Assembly (NCBI RefSeq): GCF_004322755.1
Contig: NZ_CP036401.1
Coordinates: forward strand, 4,464,001-4,528,000
DNA: 64,000 nucleotides
Direction of reading: 5' to 3'
Source of the DNA: Pseudoduganella albidiflava
Lineage (GTDB): Bacteria; Pseudomonadota; Gammaproteobacteria; Burkholderiales; Burkholderiaceae_D
Positions 3,255 through 55,983 of this stretch are shown here, piece after piece (position 1 is the stretch's first letter; every line of letters begins with the position of its first letter). The translations under genes and the position numbers were made by a program. Below the pieces are notes generated by a model, which was given only the letters and a program-made list of their open reading frames with translations, made no database searches and had not been told where the DNA came from.

Positions 3255-3321
3255 ATATTTCCTGAAACCGGGGTCTGACCCCGTTTTTTGGAAATATTTC
3301 CTGAAACCGGGGTCTGACCCC
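3255..3321. repeat. Two perfect 28-bp direct repeats with palindromic core
   Basis: Units at 3255-3282 and 3294-3321 are identical (period 39) and each carries the palindrome GGGGTCTGACCCC. The second unit folds into a hairpin just after the mnhG stop codon and may help end that transcript. The GGGTCTGACCCC core is also present in the dispersed elements at 35.8, 46.9 and 55.8 kb, but the flanks differ, so this appears to be a separate repeat family. Confidence 0.75.
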
Positions 3322-35716: not shown

Positions 35717-35812
35717 AGCGACGGCTCACCATGCCACGGCTTGCCGCCGCCACCCCATAGCGCCGGTCGGGCGACTGCGCCTTGCAGGCCTTGACCGCCA
35801 ACACGATCAGTC

Positions 35813-35951
35813 AGTAATGCCGTTAAGTTAAGCCGACCCCTAGGGCAAATTCCGGGGTCAGACCCGCCGGGTCTGACCCCAGCCCTTCGCCGTTGGGGGT
35901 GAATGCCTGCGCTTTCAATATGTCAGGTAACGCTTAACTTAACGGCATTAC
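35813..35951. mobile_element. Non-autonomous repeat element, copy 1
   Basis: 139 bp with 20-bp perfect terminal inverted repeats (GTAATGCCGTTAAGTTAAGC), bounded by 8-bp target duplications GATCAGTC at 35805-35812 and 35952-35959. The core carries GGGGTCAGACCC and its complement as a stem. The right-hand duplication covers the stop codon of the phosphatase gene. No ORF. An 8-bp duplication and a GTAA end fit IS66-family transposition. Confidence 0.85.
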
Positions 35952-35953
35952 GA

Positions 35954-38056
35954 TCAGTCGGTACTTCCCAGACGCTGCTCGGCAGCCGCCGCGGCGGAGG
36001 CTTCCTGCCCCGGCGCCAGGAACCGGGTCGACGGCCGGCCATCGGCGTTGTGCTGGACGATGCGCACCGGCCGCCCTTGAGCGTCGAGCCACACCTGGCC
36101 GATGCCGGCGCCGTTCCAGACCCGCTCGCCTTGATGGCGCGCGTCCGGCAGGCGCGGCGTGATGGCGAGATCGCGGCGCTGGGTGAACAGGTTCAGCGGC
36201 GAGCGCGGCGAATACAGCCAGCGATTGAGGCGGTCGAGCCAGTTGAGCAGGCCACGCGGGAATTCGTTCTTGATGCCGCTGCTGGTGATCTGCCAGATAT
36301 GCGGCGTGCGGTCCGATTCGCGCACCTCGACATCGTAGGCGAAGGAATAGTGCACGTCGCCCGACAGGACCACGTAATTGCCCGGGGTGCGCGAATGCCG
36401 GAAGATATTGAGCATGCTGCTGGCGGCTCCGCGGTGCGCCATCCAGTTCTCGGCGTCGACGATCAGGGCCTGGCCGATGAAGGTGGCAACCCTCTGCACC
36501 ACCTCGATCAGCTTGACCCCGAACATGGGCGCCGCCGAGACGATGACGGCGGCCGATTCGTCCAGCAACTCGTGCTGCAGCTCGGTCAGCGCTTCCCAGT
36601 CCATCAGGCCCGACGGATGGCTGGGCCGGCGCCGGTTACGCCAGCGCCGGGTGCGCGTATCGAGCACGATGATCGCGGGCTTGGTCCGTATGACGAAATC
36701 CCACTGGCGGAAAGCCAGCAGGCGCCCGATCAGCGCGTCCTGGACCGGCGCATCCAGTCGATTGTCAGCACAAGCACCATCGTCCGGCGCCGCCGTGGCG
36801 GCCAGCACCGCCATGTCCTCCAGCGCCGCCTTAAACACATCGGGGCGGTTGCCCCAGCCCTGGCACAGCATGTAGGCGATCAGCGCGTTGCCCACGATGC
36901 GGCGCGAGAACGGGTGCCCGTAGGCGGCAGCTTCCCACTTGGCCGACAGGTTCCAGTCATCGGTGACGTCATGGTCGTCGAAGATCATCAGGGTCTGCAC
37001 GTGCGCGAGCAGCCGCGCGGCCCGAGGCAGGCTGCCGCAAAAGCCCTCCATCGCCTTCGACTCGCGCCGCCAGCGCTCCGCATGCCTGGGTTCCAGCGCG
37101 GGCGGCGGCGCAACCGCCACCAGTTGCCATGGCACGGGCGACCAGACCAGCAGGTACATGGCCATCATCTCGGCCAATGTCATCAGGTGGTTTTGCGCAT
37201 TGGCCGTGGTGAAGATCGGCTTTTCCTTGCCGCCAAAGAAGCGGTCGCGCAGCGCCTCGTTGGAGTGGGCGGCAGGCAGCAACTCCTCGCGCCGGTAGTA
37301 ACTGGCCGGATGGCGGTACAGCTCTTCGCTGTCGGCGACCACGGCGCCTTCCAGGCATTCGGCGAACAGGCCCAGGCGCCGGATCAGCGCATGGATCGCC
37401 ACCAGCGTGGGGCCCGCCACATCGTCGGCATACACCTGGTCGCCGCACATGATGAGCATGGCGGGCCGCTCGTCGGGGCGTTCGATGCATTCGGCCAGCA
37501 AGGCATCGCCGCGCGCCAGGCCGTCCGGCGCTGGAAAATGCGGCTTGCGGCACGAGCCATACAGGATATTGTCGCTGCGGCTGCGCAGCACCATGTTCGG
37601 CCGCGCCGCCCCTTCATGCAGCAGGTGCGGCGCCCACTGCCCGATGCCGGCCTCTTCGCCGTCACCCTGCGTGATGAGCAAGTCATACTCGATGACCGTG
37701 TCTTGCGGGAGCGGCTCGGGCAGCGGCACATCGATCAGGTGCACGAAGGCGTGCCGGCCGACAGGAACCACGCGGCAGTGGCTTTCGTCCAGGAGCAGGC
37801 GCCACGACGCGCCTCCCCTGGGTGCCAGCAGCAGGGTCAGCTCGAGCGGCACGCTGCCGACCAGCCACAGCACCAGGCGGCCCGGTTCGAGTCGGCGCAG
37901 GATGGGACCGGCAAGTACGGGCGGGAGGCCGTCAGGGGCAGGAATCTGGATCAATCTGGTGCGCTGTCTGGGTGAATGAACAGGCCAGTGTAGCAGACGC
38001 GCCGGAGGACTTGGAGGTGCACACAGCTCATCCGTACGCAAGCCCGGGCAGTCCAT
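35954..38056 (-). CDS. PhoD-like metallophosphatase
   Basis: 700 residues. Metal-binding blocks of the PhoD/PAP fold: GSCRKPH, CGDQVYADDVAGP, FDDHDVTDDWN and SGDVHYSFAYDVE. These proteins hydrolyse phosphomono- or diesters with metal ions. There is no signal peptide at the annotated start, and a shorter start near 37955 (LIQIPAPDG) is possible because the first 30 residues look atypical. The 3' end abuts a mobile element that duplicated the stop region. Confidence 0.8.
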   Translation of the reverse strand: MDCPGLRTDELCAPPSPPARLLHWPVHSPRQRTRLIQIPAPDGLPPVLAGPILRRLEPGRLVLWLVGSVPLELTLLLAPRGGASWRLLLDESHCRVVPVGRHAFVHLIDVPLPEPLPQDTVIEYDLLITQGDGEEAGIGQWAPHLLHEGAARPNMVLRSRSDNILYGSCRKPHFPAPDGLARGDALLAECIERPDERPAMLIMCGDQVYADDVAGPTLVAIHALIRRLGLFAECLEGAVVADSEELYRHPASYYRREELLPAAHSNEALRDRFFGGKEKPIFTTANAQNHLMTLAEMMAMYLLVWSPVPWQLVAVAPPPALEPRHAERWRRESKAMEGFCGSLPRAARLLAHVQTLMIFDDHDVTDDWNLSAKWEAAAYGHPFSRRIVGNALIAYMLCQGWGNRPDVFKAALEDMAVLAATAAPDDGACADNRLDAPVQDALIGRLLAFRQWDFVIRTKPAIIVLDTRTRRWRNRRRPSHPSGLMDWEALTELQHELLDESAAVIVSAAPMFGVKLIEVVQRVATFIGQALIVDAENWMAHRGAASSMLNIFRHSRTPGNYVVLSGDVHYSFAYDVEVRESDRTPHIWQITSSGIKNEFPRGLLNWLDRLNRWLYSPRSPLNLFTQRRDLAITPRLPDARHQGERVWNGAGIGQVWLDAQGRPVRIVQHNADGRPSTRFLAPGQEASAAAAAEQRLGSTD

Positions 38057-39991: not shown

Positions 39992-40250
39992 GTAAGCGAT
40001 TGTCGTGTAGGTGAGCGTCGGCGGTACGCGATTTAAGTTAAGCGTCTGCTCAGCAGCGTCTTGAGCACCGAGAGTTAAAGGGAGATGATGCTTGCCACAC
40101 CGCTGGGAAGCGAAGTTCAGCTGGCCAGCTTGGCGGCACAGTTCCAGGGCAGGAAGTAGTCGACACGGTTTACAGGATGATCGGCGATATGCGTTAGCAC
40201 ATGGCGCAGCTAGGCTTCGGGCTCGATACCGTTCAGCCAGTCCCAGCAGC
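39992..40250 (-). pseudogene. IS66-family transposase (TnpC) 3' remnant
   Basis: On the minus strand the codons before the stop at 40117-40119 read LRHVLTHIADHPVNRVDYF and then LPWNCAAKLAS, the characteristic end of IS66 transposase; upstream DWLNGIEPEA is followed by a TAG (40210-40212) where Trp is usual. Nothing further upstream survives. A GTAAGCGATTGTCG sequence at 39992 has the form of an IS66 terminal inverted repeat. TTAAGTTAAGCGT at 40033-40045 matches the inner terminal repeat of the 140-bp elements in this window. Confidence 0.72.
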
Positions 40251-46895: not shown

Positions 46896-46948
46896 GCGCA
46901 CTCCGGCCGGTGTGGGGAAAAACAGGTCTGGGGGCAAATTCGCCAGGC

Positions 46949-47085
46949 AGTGATGCGGCTTGGATAAGCCCACCCCAAGTGCAAATTCCGGGGTCAGACC
47001 CGGCGGGTCTGACCCCTGCCCTTCGCTGTTGGGGTGAATGCATATGCGCTCAATATGTCGGTAACGCTTAACTTAACGGCACTGC
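46949..47085. mobile_element. Non-autonomous repeat element, copy 2
   Basis: 137 bp with target duplications CGCCAGGC at 46941-46948 and 47086-47093 directly at its ends. The right end reads GCTTAACTTAACGGCACTGC and the left end AGTGATGCGGCTTGGATAAGC, a degenerate inverted repeat. The core has the GGGGTCAGACCC stem. It separates the LysR gene from the divergent MFS gene and supplies most of the 354-bp gap. Confidence 0.85.
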
Positions 47086-47249
47086 CGCCAGGCAGTATTT
47101 TATGACGCCGCCTAAGCAATGGAGCGCCGTATTCATGAACCTGGTTCATATGGGCAAGCAATTCCGGGGCCGTTGCGCGCCCTGCTTCACCCTTACCATT
47201 CCCCGCTGTTCGGCGTGACAACGCCCGTGAATATCGAAGGGAATCCCGC

Positions 47250-55781: not shown

Positions 55782-55983
55782 GTAGTGCCGCTAAGTTAAG
55801 CGTTATCCGACAGATTGGAGCGCATGCATTCACCCCAACAGCGAAGGGCTGGGGTCAGGAGGGAGTGCTGGCCTGCATGCCAGCACCGTTCCGCAGGCGC
55901 GAAGCATGCTTCGCGAAACCCCTGCTTCACCCCGGCGGGTCTGACCCCGGAATTTGCACTTGGGGTGGGCTTATCCAAGCACT
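55782..55983. mobile_element. Non-autonomous repeat element, copy 3, with nested insert
   Basis: 202 bp, inverted relative to copy 2. The left end reads GTAGTGCCGCTAAGTTAAGC and the right end GGGCTTATCCAAGCACT, and the flanks GCAAGGCA and GTCAGGCA agree at 6 of 8 bases. About 76 bp (55858-55933) interrupt the central stem and carry the hairpin GTGCTGGC-N6-GCCAGCAC and an 18-bp palindrome CGCGAAGCATGCTTCGCG. The right flank covers the stop codon of the MerR gene. Confidence 0.8.

Follow-up and report, generated by a model that had tools for sequence, protein, structure and literature searches.

Several components of the locus described here are already known. The IS4 subgroup of insertion sequences (IS) comprises elements of 1400-1650 bp with ends of the type -AATR and target duplications of 10-13 bp (Table 1 of PMC2266710), and some of its members show what is described as spectacular insertion specificity in target arms (PMC2266710); the word "terminator" is absent from the text of that survey, figures aside. 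ISRm22, an IS4-family element, was reported inserted at the axis of REP palindromes in Sinorhizobium meliloti (PMC1525189). REPINs and their RAYTs have likewise been described, as inverted-doublet hairpins that lie beside RAYT genes and are dispersed in the genome (PMC3116915, PMC2817692). Prokaryotic MITEs are small, non-coding, and TIR-bounded repeats that can insert in each other, and one of them, QMITE2, contains a REP used as a target by IS1111 (PMC10969869); the terms IS4 and REPIN each have 0 occurrences in the text of that review. Among titles and abstract starts of the open-licence PMC literature, where REPIN and IS4 were not combined as a query, neither IS4 targeting of terminators nor a REPIN enclosed by IS4 ends was mentioned, which is no proof of absence.

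The window (the whole 64,000-nt stretch of Pseudoduganella albidiflava DNA analysed here) contains a repeat that combines features of these systems. We read it as a MITE with IS4-subgroup ends around the hairpin core of a RAYT-linked REPIN, which would be moved in trans by an IS4-subgroup transposase (probability roughly 0.82), a reading based at the sequence level on TIR identity, duplication length, target consensus, and cores beside RAYT genes. No such transposase was found in the host genome, which counts against it. The element has the end type and duplication length of the IS4 subgroup (PMC2266710), but is 135 bp long and non-coding; in being small, non-coding, and TIR-bounded it resembles other prokaryotic MITEs (PMC10969869). 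It shares with REPIN/RAYT systems (PMC3116915, PMC2817692) the inverted-doublet hairpin, the position beside RAYT genes, and the dispersal in the genome; unlike in those systems, IS4-like ends enclose most of the sampled cores, and 11-bp duplications flank the copies. As with ISRm22, an IS4-family element is found at REP axes, whereas ISRm22 is described with 6-bp repeats and REPs only (PMC1525189), and not with a REP-bearing MITE or terminator targets.

A sequence-only reading of the window had described a non-autonomous repeat with target duplications, present in three non-coding copies that share inverted ends and a hairpin (GGGGTCAGACCC/GGGTCTGACCCC). The three related copies and the kind of element are borne out (Table 1), but three is not the total size of the family, given at least 45 full copies in the host genome. 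In an alignment of 39 copies (model orientation), the element consists of TAATGCCGTTAAGTTAAGC, a ~30-nt spacer, a ~66-nt palindromic core, and an inverted right end, with a mean column identity of 90% and pairwise identities of 74-98% (mean 87%). The TIR word has 4 matches in the window versus 0.42 expected, and the hairpin word 9 versus 0.46; the single Rfam match in the window is a tRNA. Copy 2 has a LysR-type ORF (-) on one side and an MFS-type ORF (+) on the other, both named by eye, and copy 3 shows no convincing duplication by inspection. Bounds of copies 1 and 2 come from the model search, with genome coordinates converted to window positions. Copy 1's second duplication (35951-35961) covers the stop codon of the PhoD-like ORF. 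The CGCGAAGCATGCTTCGCG palindromic repeat that interrupts copy 3 also occurs within hairpins of other copies (L018, L023, L029, L039, and L045), and one such word lies near the RAYT gene L015 and may mark another REPIN.

Table 1. Positions in the window of the three copies and of related features
Feature	Position	Strand	Remarks
Copy 1, full element	35815..35950	-	136 bp; model R1 match and sequence inspection
Copy 1 target duplication, first	35804..35814	.	11 bp; 10/11 identical to second
Copy 1 target duplication, second	35951..35961	.	11 bp; overlaps 3' end of PhoD-like ORF 35954-38056 (-)
Copy 1 palindromic core, read as REPIN	35836..35901	-	contains GGGTCAGACCC and GGGTCTGACCC
Copy 2, full element	46951..47084	-	134 bp; model R1 match
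Copy 2 target duplication, first	46940..46950	.	11 bp; 10/11 identical to second
Copy 2 target duplication, second	47085..47095	.	11 bp
Copy 3, right end decayed, core interrupted	55783..~55987	+	right bound by inspection
Second repeat inside copy 3's core, with CGCGAAGCATGCTTCGCG	55859..55934	+	bounds by inspection
Two intact GGGGTCTGACCCC repeat units, landing-site kind	3271..3321	.	
IS66 remnant, unrelated to the element	~40039..40233	.	

Across the 7.4-Mb host genome, where a first BLAST search gave at least 40 places, a covariance model gave the family size stated above. Hairpin cores with up to 2 mismatches numbered 190 (0 for a reversed control), and TIR-like sites, also with up to 2 mismatches, 107 (17 with the reversed pattern). 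We sampled 35 cores, namely the first 36 listed places minus one beside the RAYT gene L012, all of them exact matches within the first 1.45 Mb. An IS4-like end or spacer was recognisable at 27 of the 35 and absent at 8, which by inspection comprise 2 decayed elements and ~6 cores that look bare. Genus-wide, the same model with stricter filters matched in 20 of 74 genomes, the host included. With a length of ~135 bp, no transposase inside, and many copies, the element resembles an IS4-subgroup MITE in these respects.

To determine the length of the target duplication, we used the 42 distinct host-genome copies for which both ends could be cut out; 13 further hits lacking an end, some of them chance matches and some repeats of one place, were set aside. 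Flank identity at a shift of 11 was 0.68 versus 0.42 in shuffled pairs, each of the 11 positions lying between 0.57 and 0.81, whereas shifts 6-10 and 12-15 stayed close to their shuffles. The best shift was 11 in 24 copies, and 12 of the 42 had no detectable duplication. The target duplication is 11 bp, within the 10-13 bp of the IS4 subgroup, and not 8 bp as the sequence-only reading had proposed, probably from setting the element ends differently.

The ends of the element (TAATGCCGTTAAGTTAAGC; TAATGCC..., of the -AATR type) resemble those of E. coli IS4 (TAATGCCGATCAGTTAAG/TAATGCCAGTCAGTTAAG), which starts with TAATGCCGATCAGTTAAG. Three IS4 queries found no IS4-subgroup transposase in the host genome, and partners were found in other genomes only. 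IS4-subgroup elements of the same genus and family are ~1.42 kb long; their TIR is TAATGCCGTTCAGTTAAG in what we call group A, and TAATGCCGTTAAGTTAAG(C/G) or a close variant of it in group B. Nterm_IS4 and DDE_Tnp_1 domains were present in the three proteins taken as representatives, whose scores of 236-258 bits exceed the NCBIfam IS4 cut-off of 115. In an element from a related genus (L168, genome G288), each end reads TAATGCCGTTAAGTTAAGC and so matches the TIR of the window element at 19/19 bases; duplication length and target (GGGTCWGACCC) are also the same. That the candidate with the identical TIR sits in another genus speaks against our reading; a same-genus element, L071, shares 18/19 TIR bases. 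Duplications measure 10-11 bp at the 13 IS sites with this REP-type word. On these comparisons, the best mobiliser candidate is IS4 and not IS66. Two resident PF01609 genes (L066 and L067) were rejected as partners, both being without matching ends, as was a 402-aa IS4-family IS in G020 (L123), whose three copies have common bounds well inside the matching ends; this IS had therefore inserted into another repeat. At L123, the IS with the 402-aa frame occupies 734-2295; the repeat around it has IS4-like ends and contains a GGTGTCGGACACC word, so that a further chimera, with a different core, may be present here.

Where does the element land? The majority base at each position of the host-genome duplications (24 copies with at least 8/11 matching bases) spells GGGTC(T/A)GACCC. 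A copy of the duplication lies within 3 mismatches of GGGTCWGACCC in 16 of these 24, versus 0.4% of random 11-mers; the other 8 lie beyond that limit, window copy 1 being among the poor fits. Group B IS share the target word, with 13 sites within 3 mismatches, including four of the more distant IS of genome G398. The word forms the centre of dispersed repeats, those at 3271-3321 among them, and L043 has an interrupted repeat unit next to one that is intact. When the empty sites of the 42 copies were reconstructed, their stem score was 4.67 versus 3.02 in neighbouring DNA; a stem score of at least 5 was reached in 13/42 versus 9.7%, and 6/42 were terminator-like versus 0.6%. This palindromy, together with the small number of terminators, indicates that the element targets a palindromic word, which is a terminator in some cases only.

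When compared with seven listed repeat words, 10 of the 42 targets matched, versus 3.3% at random. Since the RAYT gene L013 has GGGGTCWGACCCC repeats on both flanks and L014 has GGAGCCTGTCACC-like repeats, some of the landing sites, at least, belong to REP families. Each intact core contains two exact target words; L055 is a nested copy that sits in the target word of another copy, and L136 (genome G019) sits in a REPIN-like repeat. At the copy 2 locus, a core was present in 0 of 11 loci from relatives. The interval between the flanking genes is 224 bp in G084 (L265) versus 394 bp here, a weak case for an empty site; clean empty sites in relatives were not demonstrable because the intergenic DNA does not align. 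In the mechanism that we propose, the element would have been inserted in trans by an IS4-subgroup DDE transposase that the host genome no longer seems to encode. This enzyme would have recognised the ~19-bp TIRs, cut its target with a stagger of 11 bp, and favoured GGGTCWGACCC palindromes, which are dispersed REP-type repeats in their own right. With GGGTCAGACCC and GGGTCTGACCC in the core, each insertion would add two potential landing sites, and we infer that carrying its own target could benefit the element. The partner lineage would be a target-specialised branch of the IS4 group, the common target of that group being an intrinsic terminator stem-loop.

The core itself is built as a REPIN is, from two inverted palindromic repeats forming a hairpin of ~66 nt (alignment and fold), and in the same genome a hairpin of this type begins ~6 bp past the stop of the RAYT gene L012 (L012/L214). 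Hairpins of the core layout lie within ~200 bp of all seven best-scoring L012 homologue places in the genus (own 100%, others 50-64% identity). They were found by script in G000, G070, G012, G073, G033, and G034, and by eye in G019, where both arms of the stem are changed (GGGGTACGACCC/GGGTCGTACCCC); the six other genomes of this set have from 33 to at least 45 model matches each. Other observations fit less well. The script found a hairpin at 17 of 30 RAYT loci fetched, many of them with another loop design and in genomes that gave no model match. G028, G064, and G020 have 41-44 model matches each, yet their RAYTs are only ~48-49% identical to L012. L012 itself scores 71 bits, below the NCBIfam cut-off of 80 and above the Pfam Y1_Tnp cut-off. 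As for the REP head GT(A/G)G, GTGG was seen by eye at one core end only, with no clear head on both sides. The RAYT evidence is mixed, and on balance we consider it likely that the core is a REPIN. The genome also holds three resident RAYT genes that each have their own flanking repeat family, L011 with GGTGCCTGACCCC-like repeats and L013 and L014 with those named above.

The same layout recurs in other genomes. From eight of them we sampled 27 places among the better-scoring matches, a choice that favours full-length matches. Both IS4-like ends (by script, up to 5 mismatches per end) were present at 18/27 places, in six same-genus genomes (G020, G070, G073, G028, G012, and G019), and an 11-bp duplication (at least 10/11) at 10/27, in G073, G019, G012, and G020. 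Spacers mostly differ between genomes: those of G000 and G020 are alike and that of G073 is unlike both, while a few other pairs gave p values of 0.003-0.04, uncorrected for 36 comparisons. These layouts suggest a route by which a REPIN may have come between IS4 ends. Group B IS and MITEs would insert into GGGTCWGACCC, the REPIN hairpin arm; repeated insertion at REPIN-rich places would bring IS4 ends next to REPINs, and an end pair around a REPIN would become a mobile unit. With two exact target words, each such element could in turn receive further copies. A chimera of this kind would be an example of the merging of two non-autonomous repeats that are not related, and of a mobile repeat with targets for itself inside.

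We weighed three other accounts of the element. The sequence-only reading had suggested mobilisation in trans by an IS66 transposase, on account of an IS66 remnant in the same window with a stretch, TTAAGTTAAGCG, that it shares with the element. The remnant is real, but its link to the element is not supported: the end of an intact IS66 relative reads GTAAGCGTC, so the common letters reflect the terminus of IS66 itself. IS66 makes 8-bp duplications, as against 11 bp over 42 copies here (10/11 in copies 1 and 2), a difference that already refutes IS66 unless the majority of copies have been misread. The element showed neither an 8-bp duplication nor ends like those of the resident IS66, and that mismatch refutes the link in the terms the earlier reading had set for itself. 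With IS4 elements at hand whose ends do match, we find mobilisation by IS66 scarcely credible. It is also highly improbable, if a little less so, that a RAYT moves the whole element and that the IS4-like ends are a relic. The core does adjoin RAYT genes, and RAYT genes are still in the genome, but RAYTs and IS200/IS605 elements are described as making no larger target duplication (PMC2817692), and an 11-bp duplication at the IS4 ends fits 24 of the 42 copies. Closer to our own reading is a plain IS4-subgroup MITE, in which the inner hairpin would be no working REPIN but simply a palindrome, or a landing site that became trapped. The IS4 target word is the hairpin arm, which makes chance enclosure of target DNA possible, and with IS4-like features at 27 of the 35 sampled cores, the core may spread only by IS4. 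Against this stand the ~6 of 35 sampled cores that look bare and the core layout that adjoins RAYT genes in seven genomes, with both arms of the stem altered in G019, and we judge the plain MITE unlikely. The reading of a REPIN core between IS4-subgroup ends is the one we retain.

To examine target choice in full-size IS4-subgroup elements, we extracted 63 two-ended copies (21 + 42) and used 54; nine were dropped for incomplete flanks or Ns (L074, L151, L154, L170, and L188) or flanks matching at less than 80% (L152, L163, L164, and L174). Thirteen of the 54 sites lie in the GGGTCWGACCC word, and the other 41 come from 19 genomes, many copies being near-identical IS of one genome at different sites. 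A terminator test (stem score of at least 5, an axis no more than 2 bp away from the centre of the duplication, and an A- or T-tract) was passed by 39 of these 41 sites (17 genomes) versus 0.59% of 3240 random positions at the same loci. The hairpin axis minus the duplication centre averaged -0.09 bp (sd 0.48). An earlier symmetry test with the axis fixed at the duplication centre gave a stem of at least 7 in only 16/41, missing hairpins shifted by half a base or more. Of the two failures, L176 is a terminator by eye, its tracts pairing as part of the stem, and L186 is a group B element at an ordinary site. The stems at the 41 sites have no common sequence. Since loop and inner stem fall within the duplication, this part of the hairpin is doubled.

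The consensus target of IS4 is AAA-N20-TTT, and a 1984 paper is said to have placed IS4 in the pheST attenuator. Terminators might accordingly be hit for their tracts, the target of the group being only the spacing of an A- and a T-tract. A motif AAA-N18..22-TTT is indeed centred on the duplication at 37/41 sites versus 8/5400 random positions. Yet a stem of at least 5, scored without the tracts and as the best of overlapping motif matches, forms inside the motif in all 37, versus 98/472 other motif occurrences, and IS at the REP-type word seldom keep the tracts (2/13); we consider spacing alone a somewhat unlikely explanation. Selection against insertions elsewhere could add to the terminator pattern. 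We tentatively propose, at a little short of even odds, that IS4-subgroup transposases, that of E. coli IS4 included, choose their target not for its base sequence but for its terminator architecture (a palindromic stem-loop with an A-tract before and a T-tract after it), that at least two lineages have narrowed to REP-type palindromes, and that RAYT-linked REPINs enclosed in IS4 ends in several species form a doubly parasitic repeat equipped with landing sites of its own. Here a classical IS group lands within about half a base pair of the hairpin axis in terminators that are unrelated in sequence. Whether a DDE transposase can be guided to its target by structure thus becomes open to direct test, for which E. 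coli IS4 is a ready model. The terminator result also offers a possible reading of the target-arm specificity apparently left unexplained in the 2008 IS4 survey (PMC2266710).

For E. coli IS4, we fetched 17 loci, a small and unsystematic sample, and analysed 16, with L197 omitted as the same site as L068. By the same test, seven of 10 distinct insertions were terminator-like (L198, L276, L280, L284, L285, L287, and L196), at bamD (two), typA, mug, eno/ygcG, metK, and glcA; the two at the bamD terminator have opposite directions. Of the three others, one is the K-12 site at nanX, and the remaining two lie within genes, an IS66 gene and a sulfatase-like one. A further insertion, L288, has letters that pass the test but was left uncounted, its right flank being that of the nanX site and its flanks forming no duplication. 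In a tree of 32 transposases, in which L186 was unlabelled and the short proteins L165 and L166 were left out, terminator-targeting rows occur in both deep clades. Targeting of the REP-type word requires at least 2 changes on well-supported branches (shuffled mean 7.3), consistent with at least two origins in this set. The G398 elements (L189-L192), a distant IS4 lineage with 41% identity to L103, also target GGGTCWGACCC, apparently independently of group B.
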